Of a DNA stretch of 23,447 nt, positions 5,692 to 23,224 are shown one piece after another. The notes under the pieces are model-generated. The model saw nothing but the letters and a program-made list of their open reading frames with translations, was not told the origin of the DNA and made no database searches. Source of the DNA: a virus; the IMG/VR virus record IMGVR_UViG_3300021092_000217, positions 1 through 23,447 of that record. One strand, 5' to 3'. How positions within the stretch are numbered: position 1 is the first letter of the stretch; each line of letters begins with the position of its first letter. The translations under genes were made by a program, and so were the position numbers.

Positions 5692-5874
5692 TCTCATGGC
5701 TTCCGCGACCAACCATTTAATCGTTGACCGCTGGCTGGCTTCTGATTCAGCCAGTAACAGGCCATATTCGAGCAATGCGTTCCAGTCTTTTGCCGCATGA
5801 AGCTGGCGCAGCATGTTAGCGTTGGCAGCGCCATGGAATTGTGCTTCCATCGTGTGAACCAGCGGATTCATCAT
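5629..5874 (-). CDS. Putative antisense small protein, 81 aa
   Basis: Between dCTP deaminase (ends 5691) and the sigma factor (starts 5873) the + strand has no gene, while the - strand is open for 81 codons. The product looks protein-like: MEAQFHGAANANMLRQLHAA, then KDWNALLEYGLLLAESEASQ and RSTIKWLVAEAM form regular amphipathic helices. Its ATG overlaps the sigma factor ATG (CATCATGG at 5869-5876), so the two starts face away from each other; M9 is an alternative start. Its 3' end runs 63 nt antisense into dCTP deaminase. If real, it is the only minus-strand gene within the left arm and must be transcribed from inside the sigma gene. No family is assigned. Confidence 0.5.
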   Translation of the reverse strand: MMNPLVHTMEAQFHGAANANMLRQLHAAKDWNALLEYGLLLAESEASQRSTIKWLVAEAMRSCSIQDWHIQAANELLAGRD

Positions 5875-6868
5875 GGCTGACAGCGTAAAAGACTATCTCA
5901 ACAGTATTGCCAAATATCCGTTGTTGACACCGCAACAAGAGATACAGCTAGGCAGGCGTGTAGCTAAATGGCAAGAATTAAAGAATCTAGAAAGGAAACT
6001 GACCGTTGCAGAACAGCGTGAAGTGCGCAGCGGTGAACGCGCACGGCAGCGGTTTATCCAGTCCAATCTGCAGCTTGTGGTGCATGTAGCGCGTAAGTAC
6101 GACAAACGCAGCAACAAAAGCCTTGAGCTGATGGATCTGATCCAAGAGGGTAATATCGGCTTGGCGCGTGCGGTTGAGTTGTTTGATCCATCACGGGGCT
6201 ACAAGTTCTCGACCTATGCCTACTGGTGGATCCGCCAGGGCATCACCCGTGCATTGATCCAAAGCGATGACATGATCCGGCTGCCAACCAGCCTGCATGA
6301 GACGCTGTACAAGCTAGGCCGCACGGTGCAAGACCTTAGCCATAAACTAGGGCGCCAACCAAGCATGGCTGAAACGGCAGCAGCAATGGGGATTGAAACA
6401 GAACAGTTGTCATATCTGATGAAACAAACCTATCGCGTCACCAGTCTTGATCAAAAGGTAGCTGAAACAGAAACCACATCCATTTGCGATAACATCGCTG
6501 ATCCTAAATACGAGGATGATTTAGTTGAAACGCGGCAAGAAATACGCGACATGATGGAGATATTTGAAGCAAAACTAGACGGTCGAACCAAGCAGATACT
6601 TAAAGCCAGAAGCCTTGCTAGGCCTGTGAGTTGGTCTGAACTGGAACAGCGTATGGGCATTAGCAAGACACGATTACAGAACCTAGAGAAGCGTGGCCTG
6701 CAGCGGCTGCGTATGCTAATGAGTAACCCTTTGGACGATACCCCCCTTGGACACGTCGAAACCAACGATTCACAAGGTGGGGCATATCTATCGCGTGTGC
6801 CTGAATGGTATGTGCATCGAGCACAGGCAGGCATGGCAAGCATTAATTTTTTACCACCAAATGCTTAA
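5873..6868 (+). CDS. Phage-encoded sigma-70 family RNA polymerase sigma factor
   Basis: The 331-residue protein carries region 1.2 (residues 3-30, DSVKDYLNSIAKYPLLTPQQ), region 2 (about 59-130, including LIQEGNIGLARAVELFDPSR and KFSTYAYWWIRQGITRALI, the core-binding and -10-recognition/melting segment), region 3 (about 134-190, with RLPTSLHETLYKLGR) and region 4 (about 236-285, ending in a helix-turn-helix, SKTRLQNLEKRGLQRLR). It resembles RpoD/group 2 sigma factors, with a short non-conserved loop instead of region 1.1. It should direct host RNA polymerase to phage promoters. The last 46 residues, after SNPLDDT, do not look like a sigma tail; they read like a shifted frame of the 6747-6929 frame, next to a run of six C residues (see findings). 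There is no good Shine-Dalgarno sequence before ATG 5873. Confidence 0.93.
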   Translation: MADSVKDYLNSIAKYPLLTPQQEIQLGRRVAKWQELKNLERKLTVAEQREVRSGERARQRFIQSNLQLVVHVARKYDKRSNKSLELMDLIQEGNIGLARAVELFDPSRGYKFSTYAYWWIRQGITRALIQSDDMIRLPTSLHETLYKLGRTVQDLSHKLGRQPSMAETAAAMGIETEQLSYLMKQTYRVTSLDQKVAETETTSICDNIADPKYEDDLVETRQEIRDMMEIFEAKLDGRTKQILKARSLARPVSWSELEQRMGISKTRLQNLEKRGLQRLRMLMSNPLDDTPLGHVETNDSQGGAYLSRVPEWYVHRAQAGMASINFLPPNA

Positions 6869-8209: not shown

Positions 8210-9301
8210 CTAGCGGTAATCCCACCTGCGTCTTGACTTATCAGCACGCCTGCCCAGGTGTATAAATTGCGGCGCAGCATAGCCCAGCGAGTACGGCCAC
8301 TCTTTGTCGCACCATTTCTGCACCGCCATCATGTCAGCGCCAACGATGTAAAAATCAACAGCACCCTCGCCAGCACGCGAGTACAGGTGCTCTGACTGCT
8401 TAGCGCCGCCGACCGCTGCATTGATCGCAGGTGGCCGATAGCCACTGGTGATGACCACCGGCTTGCTGCCAAATGCTGCGCGTGCCCGCTCTAAGAATGC
8501 TGCCAGCTCTGCTGCCGTATCGACCTGGTGCTGGTGATCAAAGCGCCTTGCTTCTTGATCAAGCGCAAACTCACCGATGCGGATATGTGGCGTGATGCGT
8601 GATGCAAACGGACTATTAGGCGTCAGCTTGGCCGGTTGCTGCTGAATCTGTGGTGCTGCCTTGCTGCCACTCCATAGCCTGCCTTCTGCTTCACGGCGGC
8701 GCTTCAGGCCAGCCTCAAAGCTGCTGCCAGGGTTGCGGTACAGCAGCAGTGCAGCGGGCACCTCAGACCATTTGCGGTCGCGCAGCTTGGCGCTAATCGT
8801 CTCGAAGTCGGGCACCAACCCGTAGAAACCCGAGCCTAGGTTGTAGGCAAACGACACCAGTGCACACTTCTGGTGATCTTCCATCTGCTGCCAATGCGGC
8901 ACGGTGGTGCGCAGCTTCTCAGCAATGCGATCGACCTCCTGCCGCAGGAGCATATCAGCCTCAACGCGATTGATCTTGTCGCCTTGCTTGACTGGTCGCC
9001 CATCGCTGTAGCGGGTGGTGCCCCAGCCGATTGTCCGTACATTGGCCGGACAAAGGTATGCCTCAAGGTGGCAACCCTCGAAGTCTTGGATCAGCTTGAG
9101 CGCTGCTGTCAGGTCAGTTTGCTTGCCATCCTGTGACCATGTGCTGAACCACGGCTGATCGCGGTTCAAAAGATCCGGTGCTGCCTTGAACAATGCTGCT
9201 TCAAGCTCGACGATGGCCGCGGCCTGGTGCGGCAACCCACGCCAGTAACGAAACAGCGATTCAAGTCTGACTGGTGTTTTCGCCACGTTTCCACGGTGCA
9301 T
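8210..9301 (-). CDS. Two-domain endolysin: GH24 lysozyme plus M15 peptidase
   Basis: From ATG 9301 the protein has 363 residues. Residues about 64-215 form a T4/P22-type lysozyme (GH24): FEGCHLEAYLCPANVRTIGWG with Glu75, Cys84 and Thr90 in the E-8aa-(D/C)-5aa-T spacing, then NLGSGFYG. Here Cys replaces the usual Asp, a known natural variant. After a glutamine/proline linker, residues about 230-363 form an M15-type peptidase (PF08291-like): SGYRPPAINAAVGG, SEHLY (His305), GAVDF (Asp316) and FIHLG (His348) as zinc ligands, ending RRWDYR. The enzyme would cut both glycan strands and peptide stems of peptidoglycan. No signal peptide is visible, so it needs a holin. A GTG at 9286 is an alternative start; the frame itself is open to 9352. 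Confidence 0.92.
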   Translation of the reverse strand: MHRGNVAKTPVRLESLFRYWRGLPHQAAAIVELEAALFKAAPDLLNRDQPWFSTWSQDGKQTDLTAALKLIQDFEGCHLEAYLCPANVRTIGWGTTRYSDGRPVKQGDKINRVEADMLLRQEVDRIAEKLRTTVPHWQQMEDHQKCALVSFAYNLGSGFYGLVPDFETISAKLRDRKWSEVPAALLLYRNPGSSFEAGLKRRREAEGRLWSGSKAAPQIQQQPAKLTPNSPFASRITPHIRIGEFALDQEARRFDHQHQVDTAAELAAFLERARAAFGSKPVVITSGYRPPAINAAVGGAKQSEHLYSRAGEGAVDFYIVGADMMAVQKWCDKEWPYSLGYAAPQFIHLGRRADKSRRRWDYR

Positions 9302-9518
9302 GGATGGACATTGCGCCACCGAGCAGGCGGCTGTCGCCAGTCTGCAGCTCATCGTCGATTGGGTGCTCGACGATTATCGGCTCTGGCTCTTTTGGTTGTG
9401 CTGCGTGCCAGTCAGCTTCGGCCTCATCCAGCTTGGCAGGCAAGGTCTGCTCAAACCACCATTGCCGGATGGCTTGCTCTAACTTGCGCTCCCAGCCGGG
9501 TTTGCCGAAGCGGATCAG
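9261..9518 (-). CDS. Hypothetical 85-aa lysis-region protein with probable CTG start
   Basis: The first ATG in this frame (9443) would start in the middle of a conserved-looking stretch. Upstream the frame stays open through LIRFGKPGWERKLEQAIRQ and WWFEQTLPAKLDEAEADW to CTG 9518, which overlaps the TGA of the preceding gene as CTGA, exactly like the ATGA junctions elsewhere. No ATG, GTG or TTG exists in frame between 9443 and that junction. The protein is charged, helical in the first half and acidic/proline-rich in the second (KEPEPIIVEHPIDDELQ), ending RGENTSQT. It lies between a holin-like peptide and the endolysin, so a part in lysis is plausible, but no family is recognised. Confidence 0.6.
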   Translation of the reverse strand: MIRFGKPGWERKLEQAIRQWWFEQTLPAKLDEAEADWHAAQPKEPEPIIVEHPIDDELQTGDSRLLGGAMSIHAPWKRGENTSQT

Positions 9519-16249: not shown

Positions 16250-16949
16250 GCCGTAGGACCATGGCAGTGCTCTTTACATAGTAGCCGCCGAACACGTCTC
16301 GGCTAGATAGTCGGCCTTGAACGTGATGCAAGATCTGCTGATCGCCAAGGTAGATCGCGGCGTGATTGGGCAGATCCGCACCAAGCTGCATCAGGATTGC
16401 ATCGCCGTATTGCAGCTCTTCAAATGGCACTTGGCGGAAACCTTGGGATTTATACTCATTGACGTACAGATTTTCGCCGCGTTCCCAAAATCCATCGCGC
16501 CGTTCAAAATCGTCCAGCTTCAAGCTCCACTCGCGTTGATACCAGTCGCGGACCAACGAGTAGCAGTCCACAATACCGAACACGAACTCACGCCCGACGT
16601 AGGGCAGCTCAAAATCAGCAGGCTCGCAGCCGCCCCATTGCTCGGTTTTAGGGTTGACGATTACCCATGGCAGGCCGGTGCTGTTGCAGGCAATACGGTC
16701 GGCAGGTGATGGTTCGGGGCGGGCGACAGGATGGCTGTGCACTACGGCCACAATTTCGCCTTTGTCCTCGGCAGCGGCGTAGTCGCAAGGATCCAGCACA
16801 AAATGCTCGTCTGGCGTAGCGGCAATGTTTTTGCACGGGTAGTAGCGCCGCCTGCCTTTTATGACATGGATCAGACCGCAACACTCATGCGGATCTTCGG
16901 CTTGGGCGTGCGCCAAGATTTCAGCCTGCAAAGCGTCGGTCAACTTCAT
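16236..16949 (-). CDS. K: Tail tip peptidase, lambda K-like (JAMM plus NlpC/P60)
   Basis: The 237-residue protein has two enzymatic domains. Residues 1-115 form a JAB/MPN metallopeptidase with all ligands: Glu22 (HECCG), VVHSHP (His71, His73), PSPAD (Ser81, Asp84). Residues 117-237 form an NlpC/P60 cysteine peptidase with VDCYSL (Cys129) and NHAAIYLG (His196). This is the lambda gpK arrangement. The NlpC/P60 part probably cuts peptidoglycan during tail assembly or entry, and the JAMM part may process a tail protein. It overlaps the L-like gene by 4 nt. Confidence 0.95.
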   Translation of the reverse strand: MKLTDALQAEILAHAQAEDPHECCGLIHVIKGRRRYYPCKNIAATPDEHFVLDPCDYAAAEDKGEIVAVVHSHPVARPEPSPADRIACNSTGLPWVIVNPKTEQWGGCEPADFELPYVGREFVFGIVDCYSLVRDWYQREWSLKLDDFERRDGFWERGENLYVNEYKSQGFRQVPFEELQYGDAILMQLGADLPNHAAIYLGDQQILHHVQGRLSSRDVFGGYYVKSTAMVLRHESR

Positions 16950-18523
16950 GTGGTCAAACCCGCGCCTGGAAATGAACCAAACGGTAGCGTGTACGCTGGA
17001 TCGCGGAAAACATACCTGTTATTGCCGGTAAATGTATACGAAGCAGAGGAATAAGCATCGACGCTATAAAAGGTATAACTACCTGATGCACTCTCTGAAG
17101 TAAAAGTGTAGCTTGTTTCTACGATAACTTTTGGGCCAAGTAGCGTATATATGTTGTATATCCTAGTAACTGTGGTTGAATAGTTATTTGGTAGGCCGGG
17201 ACCTCTAACAATTTGACCGACCGATATGCCTGTTGTTCCGCTGGGAAACACAAGCTGAAAACTGCCAGCTCTGCCATATCTTGGGAGAGTTACTCCAAGT
17301 ACTTGCCCAGTTCTTGTGGCCTGAAGGGTGTACGTTACTGTCGCGGCCTGACTCAAGGTCAGCGTTGTTCCTGCGATTGCCGTGATCGTTGTGCCGCTTC
17401 TAATTTGCGATCCGCTTACCCTCATACCGGTTGCTAGTGCTGAAGAGCTAGAAACAACAAGGCTTGTCCCATTTGGTTGAATCGTGCCAGTCAGCGTTGC
17501 AGTTGTGCTTGCGTTGGCGTTATTGCTCATCGTTACGGTTCTGCCGTCACCAGAGACTGCGCTAACTGTTGTGCTTGTTGGGACACCATGGCCGCTAATC
17601 TGCGCTCCAGTTTCAATCGAAATGGCTGAGGTCAAGGTCAACTGATTATTGCCGTCAGTCACAGAGCCTGTTCTTGTGATCGGCGCAAAACGTAACTTGC
17701 AGCTATCTAAACGCTTGCCGCAGACATCTTCTGCCAAGGTGCCAACTACTTGGTCTTGAGCGTTGTAATACCCCGTGCCTACATAGCCGCACTCGCTGCT
17801 GCGATATTGCCACTGGCAAATGTTGGCGACAATTTGCCGCTTGGGGATCATCATCCCCGCAAGATCCAACTTGCTGGCAAGCTCCCATTGCACCACATCG
17901 CGGTTTTCAGCGGATTTACGATCTACATACCAGATCTCATCAGGGAATTTGGCGTGTACGTCAGCCGTAGCCTCACCGTCAAGAAACTTCTTCAACGTGC
18001 GGATGCGCGTTACCTTGGCACCACCCAAATCGTTGCCAGGTGTAACCGCATTGGCCAGCAACAGTAAGGCGCTGATTTCACCGCCAAGGTTTGCAACAGA
18101 TAGGGTTGGCCTTGGCAGCGTGCCACCGTTGGAGTAGTCAAATCCCTCAGCTTGAATTGGCAATCTGGTGTATTGGTTGCCGTTCCAGACGATATTGCCG
18201 GTCACGTTGGCATTGGTGCCAGCATGAAAGTAATAGGTGTCACTGGTGCCGTGCAGCGTGGCGTCCAACGTGAGCTGGAACAGTTCGATCACGGCATTAG
18301 GTGCCAAGACCGACAGCTCTTCATAAACGCTGCTGATGGCTGTCCAAGTGACCGTGTTATCAACGATGGTGCTACCAATGTCGGTTGGCCATGCTGGCTG
18401 CGTGCTATCGCTGGTGCCAGCGTCGGTGCAGCGAAAGACAAGACCGCTTGCCTGTACGGACGTTGCCCGTACAACATCACCAACGGCGTAAGCAGTGCTG
18501 GCCGTCCAAGCTGCGTAAGCCAT
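16946..18523 (-). CDS. L: Minor tail protein, lambda L-like, with extra domains
   Basis: The core (about residues 68-280) matches lambda gpL: ELSVLAPNAVIELFQLTLD, AEGFDYSNGGTLPRPTLSVA, FPDEIWYVDRKSAENRDVVQ, WELASKLDLAGMMIPKRQ. It includes four cysteines (236, 245, 268, 275) whose 9/23/7 spacing equals that which I recall for the iron-sulfur ligands of lambda gpL. Two additions make it 525 residues instead of about 230. One is an N-terminal module of some 65 residues (WTASTAYAVGDVVRA... QPAWPTDIG) resembling small carbohydrate-binding tail modules. The other is about 230 residues inserted between KLRFA (280) and the conserved LPFGSFPG end (513). The insert is threonine/serine-rich with repeated beta motifs (GAQISGHGV, GMRVSGSQI, VGQIVRGPG). 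Confidence 0.9.
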   Translation of the reverse strand: MAYAAWTASTAYAVGDVVRATSVQASGLVFRCTDAGTSDSTQPAWPTDIGSTIVDNTVTWTAISSVYEELSVLAPNAVIELFQLTLDATLHGTSDTYYFHAGTNANVTGNIVWNGNQYTRLPIQAEGFDYSNGGTLPRPTLSVANLGGEISALLLLANAVTPGNDLGGAKVTRIRTLKKFLDGEATADVHAKFPDEIWYVDRKSAENRDVVQWELASKLDLAGMMIPKRQIVANICQWQYRSSECGYVGTGYYNAQDQVVGTLAEDVCGKRLDSCKLRFAPITRTGSVTDGNNQLTLTSAISIETGAQISGHGVPTSTTVSAVSGDGRTVTMSNNANASTTATLTGTIQPNGTSLVVSSSSALATGMRVSGSQIRSGTTITAIAGTTLTLSQAATVTYTLQATRTGQVLGVTLPRYGRAGSFQLVFPSGTTGISVGQIVRGPGLPNNYSTTVTRIYNIYTLLGPKVIVETSYTFTSESASGSYTFYSVDAYSSASYTFTGNNRYVFRDPAYTLPFGSFPGAGLTT

Positions 18524-21027: not shown

Positions 21028-21557
21028 CTACCTACGAGACCGCGCTTTATCCATGGCTTCTTTTTCACGTCTGCCTTTGACCTCGTAATACGCCGCGAAA
21101 TGCACAAACTCTGCATCGGTCAGCTCAGTACGCAGCTTGCTGACGGTCATGCCTAGTTCAGTTGCAAGGAAGAACTCAAAGAATAGCCAGGAGTCTTCCT
21201 CTAGTCTTTTTTTGCCTCTTCAAGCCCAGCGCCATCACCAAGGCCAAACAGAAACAGCTCAAGCTCGTTCAATACACGCTCGGGCAGCTCACGTTGCAGC
21301 TTGGCCGCATCAGCCGGCGCAAATGCCTTGCTGCCATCTTCCAACTCAGCCATCTGGCACAGCAACTGCGTGCTGATTTCCAGCGCTTCATCGGAACCAG
21401 CTAGTGTGGTCGCCTTTTTGCGGTCGGCGCGGGTGATAGGCTTGAAATAAAGCGTCATCACCACATCACCGCTATCGGTCTTCACCTCAAACTTGCGCCT
21501 TTGATTCAGGTCAAAGGCTGCGGTGAGCAGGTCAACCGCACGTTGTGATGCAGGCAT
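21028..21557 (-). CDS. GT: Tail assembly chaperone G-T fusion (-1 frameshift product)
   Basis: Ribosomes that slip back one base on the A7 run at 21213-21207 leave the G frame and continue through RLEEDSWLFFEFFLATELGM, then TVSKLRTELTDAEFVHFAAY and YEVKGRREKEAMDKARSRR to a TAG at 21030-21028. The G-T protein would have 176 residues (117 plus 59). The T part matches the usual T-domain theme of an LTxxEFxxxAAYY helix. In lambda-like phages G-T binds the tape measure protein and recruits tail tube subunits. The T frame has its own ATG (21147), but it lies inside the domain, so frameshifting is the likely route. Confidence 0.85.
21201..21557 (-). CDS. G: Tail assembly chaperone, G-like
   Basis: The 118-residue protein starts MPASQRAVDLLTAAFDLNQR and has a regular alpha/beta pattern (KFEVKTDSGDVVMTLYFKPI), then helices (EISTQLLCQMAELEDGSKAF) and ends GLEEAKKD, just after the slippery A7. 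Size, position between the major tail protein and the tape measure, and the frameshift at its end fit the G protein of the lambda G/G-T pair. It coats the tape measure protein until the tube is built and is not in the virion. Its ATG overlaps the TAA of the preceding tail protein gene (TAATG). Confidence 0.85.
   Translation of the reverse strand: MPASQRAVDLLTAAFDLNQRRKFEVKTDSGDVVMTLYFKPITRADRKKATTLAGSDEALEISTQLLCQMAELEDGSKAFAPADAAKLQRELPERVLNELELFLFGLGDGAGLEEAKKD
21207..21213 (-). other. Slippery heptamer for -1 frameshift
   Basis: On the - strand the sequence is GC-AAAAAAA-GAC, read in the G frame as GCA AAA AAA GAC TAG. A_AAA_AAA is a classical X_XXY_YYZ slippery site. The G stop codon follows within one codon, and the -1 frame continues for 59 codons. 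Confidence 0.85.
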
Positions 21558-21976
21558 TAGATGCTGAGGGTCAGCGCCCCAGAAGTAACGAAGTTGATCG
21601 TGATGATTTCGATCTCGCCAACAGTAGCGGAATACTCCGAACCTGTCACCACCAAGGTGCCGGTGATCTTTTTGCCGCCGGTTTCATCCAGATACAGCTC
21701 AAACGCTGCATCGGCTTCGTCGGTGACCTGATTGACATCCTTGATCAGGTCCAGCTTGTCACCAGACCCAGGGGCGTCGTACATCAGCTCAATGGTGCCC
21801 GAACCGCTGATCAGGCCGCCTACGTTGGCGCGGTAGGTGTCGCCGTGATCGGTCACGTCGAGCGATTCCTTTTCAACGGTCATAGACCAAGACCGCACCG
21901 CAGCGATCTCGGAAAGACCGCCACTGCCAGCCTTATCAAAAAAGACCGTGCCCTGTTGCCCGCGATAAAAAGCCAT
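21557..21976 (-). CDS. Major tail protein, paralogue 2
   Basis: The 139-residue protein starts MAFYRGQQGTVFFD and contains RSWSMTVEKESLDVTDHGDT, TYRANVGGLISGSGT and SEYSATVGEIEIITINFVTS, all beta-strand patterns of a siphophage tail tube (lambda V-like) protein. It is a close paralogue of the next gene upstream, with identical MAFYRGQQG and TYRANVGGLISGSGT blocks. It would form rings of the tail tube together with, or instead of, that protein. The stop overlaps the G start. Confidence 0.88.
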   Translation of the reverse strand: MAFYRGQQGTVFFDKAGSGGLSEIAAVRSWSMTVEKESLDVTDHGDTYRANVGGLISGSGTIELMYDAPGSGDKLDLIKDVNQVTDEADAAFELYLDETGGKKITGTLVVTGSEYSATVGEIEIITINFVTSGALTLSI

Positions 21977-21978
21977 GA

Positions 21979-22395
21979 TCAGATGTCCAGCGTGATGGCG
22001 CCGTTGGTGACGAAGTTGATCGTGATCACTTCAATTTCACCCACGGTAGCGGAGTATTCAGCCGAGGTGATCACCCCATCAAAGGTGATTTTCTTGGTGC
22101 CGGTGGTGTCAAGGAACAGCTCGAACAGAGCAATGCCTTCGTCGTTAGCTGTATTGACGTGCTCGATGAACACGTTGGTTTCATCGGCGCTGCTGGCGGT
22201 GTACAGCACCTCACAGGTGCCGCTGCCGCTGATTAGGCCGCCGACATTGGCGCGATAGGTAGCACCCAGAGCGGTGGTGTCCAGCGACTCCTTCTCAACG
22301 GTCAGAGACCACGAGCGAGTGCTAGCGATCGTGACGCCGGTAGCGCCAGCGTCGTCAAACTTGACGCTGCCCTGCTGTCCCCTGTAAAAGGCCAT
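21979..22395 (-). CDS. Major tail protein, paralogue 1
   Basis: The 138-residue protein (MAFYRGQQGSVKFDDAGATG, RSWSLTVEKESLD, ATYRANVGGLISGSGTCEVL, SAEYSATVGEIEVITINFVT) is the upstream copy of the tandem pair, separated from the second by only 2 nt. Differences cluster in the middle (residues about 62-105, the acidic SSADETNVFIEHVNTANDEG segment), as expected for surface loops of a tube subunit. It follows the tail terminator gene, the standard place for the major tail protein. Confidence 0.9.
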   Translation of the reverse strand: MAFYRGQQGSVKFDDAGATGVTIASTRSWSLTVEKESLDTTALGATYRANVGGLISGSGTCEVLYTASSADETNVFIEHVNTANDEGIALFELFLDTTGTKKITFDGVITSAEYSATVGEIEVITINFVTNGAITLDI

Positions 22396-22397
22396 GG

Positions 22398-22823
22398 CTA
22401 GAGATCCTCGAAGGTTTCAAAGGTCAATCTGACCTGTGTTTGGAAGTAACCCTCTGGAGCTGGCGATGCCACCACCTCGGGTCCAGTAGGCGGATCAAAA
22501 TGAACGCTACTGACTACCTGCCTATTGTAAAGGTCACGGATGCGCTTGCCTATTGTCAGATTAGCGCCGGGTCCAACACCCTTAGGCGTAAAGACATTTA
22601 TGACAATGACACCGATGACGCTGTTGCTGCTGCCTGTGGTGCCGCCCATTGTGAGAAAGTTATTGTTGCCAAAGCTGACAAGGCATTGGACAAACGAGCT
22701 GTTAGGCGTTGGGGTCGAGGGTTGATTGTGAAATACAACCGGAATTGCTGGTGCTAACGCCAACTCAGTAGCAAGCCTGCCTTCAATGGTTGAGCGGATG
22801 GTGTTGAGGTTGACGGCTGCCAT
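22398..22823 (-). CDS. Tail terminator protein (DUF4128-like, lambda U-like role)
   Basis: The 141-residue product begins MAAVNLNTIRSTIEGRLATE and includes IPVVFHNQPSTPTPNSSFVQ, then VIVINVFTPKGVGPGANLTI, GKRIRDLYNRQVV and a final strand FQTQVRLTFETFEDL. This is the pattern of the DUF4128/minor tail protein family, whose members cap the tail tube and join it to the head. Position between the HK97 gp10-like gene and the major tail protein supports this. It shares a base with the upstream stop. Confidence 0.85.
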   Translation of the reverse strand: MAAVNLNTIRSTIEGRLATELALAPAIPVVFHNQPSTPTPNSSFVQCLVSFGNNNFLTMGGTTGSSNSVIGVIVINVFTPKGVGPGANLTIGKRIRDLYNRQVVSSVHFDPPTGPEVVASPAPEGYFQTQVRLTFETFEDL

Positions 22824-23224
22824 TAGTCTTGCCTCCCAATGCGATCAGCCTGCTGCTTAGCCCATGCACTCATTTCACGGGCGATACGATCAGTCCAGCC
22901 TGCTGGTGCCTGCGTAGACCAGCCGCCAGCCAATCGCTCGGCATAGGGCAGGTTGTTGTGGATGTGGTACACATTGCCAGCACGCTCCATCTGGTAATCC
23001 AGCTTGCGAGGCGGCGTAATTGCGCTAGGCGTTGTCTGCGGACCAGCGTCGTAGCCAGGTGTACCCTGCTCGCTAACTGCCCAGCTCAAACGAAAGCGAC
23101 CAGTATCGACAGGGCTTTCTTGCTTCAGCCTGCTATCAGTCTCAAACACCGTCGCCCGTAAGAGCTGCTCGTACTTCTGCAGGCTGTAGTTGCCAAAGTC
23201 AACTAGGTTGATCCGTCGTGCCAT
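22823..23224 (-). CDS. HK97 gp10-like tail completion / minor tail protein
   Basis: The 133-residue protein has the family pattern: an N-terminal helix (NYSLQKYEQLLRATVFETDS), the signature SPVDTGRFRLSWAVSE and, later, HNNLPYAERLAGGWSTQAPA with the C-terminal helix MSAWAKQQADRIGRQD. The P(V/R)DTGxLRxSW and YAxxLExG elements define the HK97-gp10_like (PF04883) family, which works at the head-tail junction or as a tail completion protein. Its ATG lies 2 nt after the preceding stop. Confidence 0.9.
   Translation of the reverse strand: MARRINLVDFGNYSLQKYEQLLRATVFETDSRLKQESPVDTGRFRLSWAVSEQGTPGYDAGPQTTPSAITPPRKLDYQMERAGNVYHIHNNLPYAERLAGGWSTQAPAGWTDRIAREMSAWAKQQADRIGRQD

Follow-up and report, generated by a model that had tools for sequence, protein, structure and literature searches.

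The virus record IMGVR_UViG_3300021092_000217 from IMG/VR, used here over its entire available length of 23,447 bases (the window), belongs to a relative of phages infecting aquatic cyanobacteria and codes for two adjacent major tail (tube) proteins, copy A and, immediately downstream, copy B. We put at about 0.52 the probability that these duplicated and probably co-translated proteins jointly build the body of the tail tube, most likely as mixed A/B rings. Phage tail tubes are commonly described as stacks of a single protein, and a lineage keeping two diverged and apparently co-translated tube proteins offers a natural example in which a homomeric ring machine may now be heteromeric.

A tandem pair of tail tube genes

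Both open reading frames (ORFs) start with ATG, and their products align over the full length with 90 of 139 positions identical (65%), one gap, and a BLASTP E value of 5e-60, which excludes a chance likeness. Identity is unevenly spread; in the window's clade it is ∼80 to 83% at residues 1 to 13, 41 to 61, and 109 to 128, and 30% at residues 62 to 80. A sequence-only reading of the window had described neighboring genes of 138 and 139 residues, 2 nucleotides apart, agreeing at well over half of their positions, with identical blocks and a divergent middle, and this description holds throughout. It had also taken the products for paralogous tube proteins, an assignment supported by family match, synteny, and predicted fold. 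The family phrog_10528, "major tail protein," matches both (E = 8.3e-22 for A and 1e-19 for B), and the local gene order is neck/tail completion, tail terminator, A, B, tail assembly chaperone, and tape measure, with tail-tip genes of the lambda-like M, L, K, I, and J types also downstream of the pair. The gathering score of Pfam Phage_tail_2 (PF06199) is not reached by B (15 bits versus 23.8) and A is not listed, and neither copy is assigned to that family.

An AlphaFold2 model from this family gives A the tail tube fold with a mean predicted local distance difference test score (pLDDT) of 85; B has the same predicted fold with a pLDDT of 73.5, its hairpin at residues 38 to 54 being poorly predicted. 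The models have a tube beta-sandwich, a long beta2-beta3 hairpin (low confidence in B), and one helix at about residues 70 to 81. Foldseek matches in the PDB are the tail tubes of monocin, a gene transfer agent (GTA), roseophage R4C, 80alpha, lambda, and SPP1, several of them at a probability of 1.00, and the R4C tube protein (8gtb, E = 0.0033) is the sole solved relative by sequence profile. The VIA-align lists were left out as family evidence, as unrelated beta proteins occur in them at similar Z.

Distribution among relatives

The Synechococcus phage S-H1 (MK105819) carries the same tandem pair at the same place and with the same 2-nucleotide gap (AZB50577 and AZB50578), at 69% (A) and 67% (B) BLAST identity to the window's copies. 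The S-H1 genes are annotated merely as coding for hypothetical proteins, and a literature search found no published structural data on them. The Prochlorococcus phages P-HS2, MED4-184, and MED4-117 share the family and the neighborhood and have a major tail protein 48% identical to A and 41% identical to B; they differ from the window in having a single copy per genome, preceded by an unrelated 50-residue ORF. In MED4-184 (locus L005, 7819-7971), as in P-HS2-type phages, this ORF separates the single major tail protein gene from the tail terminator; it was considered as a remnant of a second copy and rejected, since on reading it bears no resemblance to a tube protein.

A survey of relatives for single or double genes had been proposed from the window's sequence, and it yields 142 distinct pairs and 62 distinct single-copy loci once identical sequences are removed. 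The IMG/VR scans were seeded with A, B, the A copy of S-H1, and the single-copy Prochlorococcus protein; each gives the best 80 loci, so that the counts describe a sample rather than a census, and the scans reach a total of 393 loci once pieces of the window and the phage records are included. The terminator-pair-chaperone placement is common to the 133 of the 142 pairs that have both flanks. Pair-lineage loci with enough flank have two genes and P-HS2-type loci have one, and wherever the pair lineage seems to show a single gene, the contig ends at the locus. Among the matching entries in 50,697 phage records, S-H1 is the sole carrier of a pair. MED4-184 and MED4-117, checked over their whole genomes, have one tail protein gene each, an apparent second site in MED4-117 being the terminal redundancy of the record. 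No relatives of the pair were found in cellular genomes, and a degenerate-pattern search built from an alignment and aimed at distant relatives returned close relatives alone. The pair lineage is widespread.

One duplication and two constrained copies

A maximum-likelihood tree built from 93 proteins divides them into three groups, A, B, and single-copy, with two changes, which is the minimum. This grouping recurs in 88% (A), 88% (B), and 100% (single-copy) of bootstrap trees, with modest stem supports for A and B (84/48 and 87/49). The separation of A and B into clades points to a single duplication before the window's clade and the S-H1 clade split, and the data favor placing this event after the split from the P-HS2 lineage. 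Change appears on both stems after the duplication, somewhat less on that of A (lengths 0.25 and 0.36), and A and B are 46% and 41% identical, respectively, to the single-copy proteins.

Both copies are under strong purifying selection. The median ratios of nonsynonymous to synonymous substitution rates (dN/dS) are 0.10 for A and 0.08 for B, values that are rough because dS is near saturation. Decay of one copy, which the sequence-only reading had named as an outcome that would refute it, is rejected within the sample, as both genes are intact in 142 of 142 distinct pairs and both are constrained. We also considered gene conversion as the process upholding the identical blocks. At positions with identical residues in A and B, the two genes use the same codon in 48% of cases when taken from one genome and in 46% when taken from different genomes of the window's clade; the corresponding values for the S-H1 clade are 46% and 42%. 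Codon sharing is thus nearly equal in the two comparisons and is not raised in those blocks, so gene conversion is rejected. One outlier B (locus L309, 2910-3359) is strongly diverged, with 150 residues, an intact frame, a long branch of 1.35 in the tree, and insertions after the helix, and is possibly recombinant.

The A-B junction

The window reads TGATCATG at the junction, comprising the TGA of A, exactly TC, and the ATG of B. All 142 distinct pairs have a gap of 2 nucleotides, which are TC in each of the 41 representatives; the flanking junctions are variable, at 2, 3, 29, or 32 nucleotides between terminator and A and −29 to 8 between B and chaperone, and the two bases preceding the start of A are of five kinds among the representatives. 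The constraint extends into B, where 40 of 41 representatives have T at the third position of the second codon, with all four bases found in the matching codon of A, and the synonymous sites by the junction are near-invariant on B's side only. Nearly all pair loci have a GAGGA Shine-Dalgarno-like site ahead of A (about −5.9 kcal/mol). For B the median Shine-Dalgarno duplex energy is 0; members of the S-H1 clade lack a site, and most members of the window's clade have a weak one (−3.0). A well-formed site for A and a weak or missing one for B, together with the invariant start context, suggest that translation of B is probably coupled to that of A, and the simplest reading is that B is made through termination-reinitiation by ribosomes that have just completed A.

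The same junction bears on whether some A and B might be made as a fused polypeptide by frameshifting, or whether one copy carries an outer decoration. There is precedent in SPP1, in which a +1 frameshift on one gene adds an outer domain and gp17.1 and gp17.1* are present at 3:1 (PMC6316719). Relative to A, B is in the −1 frame, which is free of stops over the 9 to 34 codons preceding B's start. However, no canonical slippery heptamer is present in the open −1 stretch in any of the 41 representatives, RNA folding at the junction is ordinary (mean z of −0.2 among 14 tested), and a frameshift fusion is rejected. Neither copy, at 138 and 139 residues, has an added domain, and the decorating role offered by the sequence-only reading is thus not supported. 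The SPP1 tail contains two forms of its tail protein, whereas the window has two near-equal genes that are not a frameshifted pair of that type, and we regard arrangements of this kind as very improbable.

Where the copies differ

Fixed differences, defined as positions at which a residue is fixed (90% or more) in each copy and differs between the copies, number 12, of which six fall within residues 66 to 79 (P = 0.0002); with a looser measure, 10 of 20 do so (P = 2.8e-7). Residues 103 to 138 have none (P = 0.001 by the looser measure). Segment 37 to 54, which aligns to the long stacking loop of R4C, also has no fixed differences, although this is not significant by itself (P = 0.17). Within-ring contacts in R4C comprise strand pairing and salt bridges from D67, E70, and E103 to R91 and K126 (PMC10276861). 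R4C residues D67, E103, and R91 align to positions 72 (acidic), 113 (E), and 101 (K) of the window family, and these are kept in A, in B, and largely in the single-copy proteins. With the ring and stacking framework kept in both, the two copies look able to form the same contacts, and what sets them apart is the helix next to the lateral contact.

Retention of these mapped contacts would also be expected if A and B were interchangeable or alternative subunits that mix at random, retained for the sake of dosage or to evade host sensing of the tail tube (e.g., of the DSR2 type). Plain dosage, however, would leave room for loss of a copy or for gene conversion, and neither is seen; the paralogue-specific residues fixed in every genome argue for distinct roles; we consider such interchangeability quite unlikely.

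A more serious alternative is that one copy, most likely A, forms the tube and the other a single specialized end ring, either on the distal tail protein or under the terminator. Contractile injection systems do have initiator rings of tube-fold paralogues, as in Alg5 and Alg7 beside Alg1 (PMC8894135), and the weaker ribosome-binding site of B, its slightly longer stem, and its greater divergence from the single-copy proteins would all suit a minor component. An end ring would, however, be expected to have its special residues on one stacking face, whereas segment 37 to 54 has no fixed difference and the A/B differences lie instead beside the lateral side. The invariant junction suggests linked amounts, which six copies would not need, and the single-copy relatives do without such a ring. 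We regard an end ring as unlikely, though it is a stronger candidate than interchangeable subunits.

A two-component tube body fits better than an end ring with the paralogue-specific residues on the lateral side, the invariant junction, and the equal constraint on both copies, and it is favored, albeit indirectly. The proposed course of events is that an ancestral single tail tube gene was duplicated once in tandem in an ancestor that the window's clade shares with the S-H1-like cyanosiphophages, and that both products are now required as tube subunits. Ribosomes would start A at the ribosome-binding site ahead of it and, having finished A, go on to start B at the stop-TC-start element, linking the two amounts. 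Sharing the ring-closing and stacking framework and differing mainly at the surface of the helix region (residues 66 to 79) by the within-ring contact, A and B would together form a single tube around the tape measure, composed of both kinds of subunit. Mixed A/B rings would be the likeliest arrangement, resembling the pseudo-hexameric rings that T5 pb6 and P74-26 form but without the fusion, with alternating or segmental A and B rings the second choice. Each element of this reading has a precedent, in the tubes of T5 and P74-26 and in a heterohexamer of Hcp2 and Hcp3, both described below. By length arithmetic, the tape measure of 711 residues corresponds to ∼107 nm or ∼27 rings. Tape measures are of similar length in one- and two-copy phages (667, 711, and 776 residues), so the second copy is not tied to a longer tail.

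We note that several observations weigh against a two-component tube body. The single-copy tail protein of P-HS2-type phages is also without a Shine-Dalgarno site, and weak sites do not by themselves show coupling. In the S-H1 clade the hairpin/loop segment at residues 41 to 61 is also divergent between A and B (49% identity), and the helix can be aligned to R4C only with uncertainty. At the lateral salt bridges as mapped, we looked for exclusive swaps of charge, which would have spoken strongly for hetero-rings; none was seen, and rings of a single subunit type are thus still compatible with the mapped contacts.

Other features of the window

The features at and around the pair are listed in Table 1. 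In the tail assembly chaperone gene, A AAA AAA G, a canonical −1 slippery site, lies shortly before the stop, and the −1 frame stays open to ∼21037, giving a typical gpT-like extension (LFFEFFLATELGMTVSKLRTELT...); this is an ordinary gpG/gpGT arrangement. Farther along the window, a protein of 525 residues (16946-18523, minus strand) matches the minor tail protein L family over residues 68 to 280 only and has a long C-terminal remainder. An endolysin (8210-9352, minus strand) has two catalytic domains, phage lysozyme and peptidase M15, and a phage-encoded sigma-70-type factor with regions 1.2, 2, 3, and 4 (5873-6868, plus strand) is possibly a late-gene regulator.

Table 1. Coordinates of the tube gene pair, its junction, and neighboring tail genes in the window
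Feature	Position	Strand	Basis
Neck/tail completion protein	22823-23224	-	Neighbor upstream of tail terminator
Tail terminator	22398..22823	-	phrog_179, E 7.5e-18; PF13554 over cut-off
Shine-Dalgarno-like GAGGA within GAGGATCT, upstream of A	22404..22411	-	Duplex energy about -5.9
Copy A, major tail (tube) protein, 138 residues, upstream gene	21979..22395	-	ORF, phrog_10528, AlphaFold2 model
Junction TGA-TC-ATG (stop of A, 2 nucleotides, start of B), proposed coupling element	21974..21981	-	Constancy of gap and TC
Copy B, major tail (tube) protein, 139 residues, downstream gene	21557..21976	-	ORF, phrog_10528, AlphaFold2 model
Tail assembly chaperone, first frame	21201..21557	-	phrog_20784 (4.7e-39); weak phrog_344 tail assembly chaperone (0.03)
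Tape measure protein, 711 residues	18867..21002	-	PF20155, E 1e-23; phrog_9959

Comparison with known systems

Papers naming tandem tube paralogues in siphophages were absent from the literature searched. The related cyanophage KBS-S-2A has one protein of 252 residues at the same place (locus L394, 6055-6813); it was considered as a fused double tube and set aside, since its sequence looks like a single domain with an insertion of ∼90 residues in the beta1-beta2 turn, which would be another route to a more elaborate tube. The contractile particles with Alg5 and Alg7 resemble the window in having tube-fold paralogues within one particle, but those paralogues form specialized initiator rings by the spike and baseplate and are not a tandem, near-equal pair. 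Paralogous tube proteins that share one ring are represented by the deposited Hcp2-Hcp3 heterohexamer of the Bacteroides fragilis type VI secretion system (PDB 9vne), which has the same general fold; the likeness is one of fold, to a bacterial secretion system.

In ring machines such as the V-ATPase c-ring, subunits that had been duplicated lost contacts in a complementary way and so came to form obligate hetero-rings, and the A/B pattern would fit such a course. We tentatively suggest, as a possibility short of an expectation, that the tube is an obligate two-component polymer with three A and three B subunits alternating in each ring, a living, unfused stage of the proposed path of duplication and fusion to tubes of the T5 and P74-26 types. 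Obligate A/B rings would, if true, make this siphophage tube heteromeric. The pair lineage would allow the proposal that T5/P74-26-type tubes arose by duplication and then fusion to be tested directly in cultured S-H1 and its cultured host. The T5 pb6 and P74-26 tubes are C3 pseudo-hexamers built from a duplicated and fused tube domain (PMC5717097 and PMC10034513). They share with the window two tube domains derived by duplication, and differ in that theirs lie within one polypeptide, whereas A and B are separate ORFs in all of the distinct pairs, 65% identical in the window and apparently co-translated; the window's pair is the unfused counterpart of these duplicated tube proteins.
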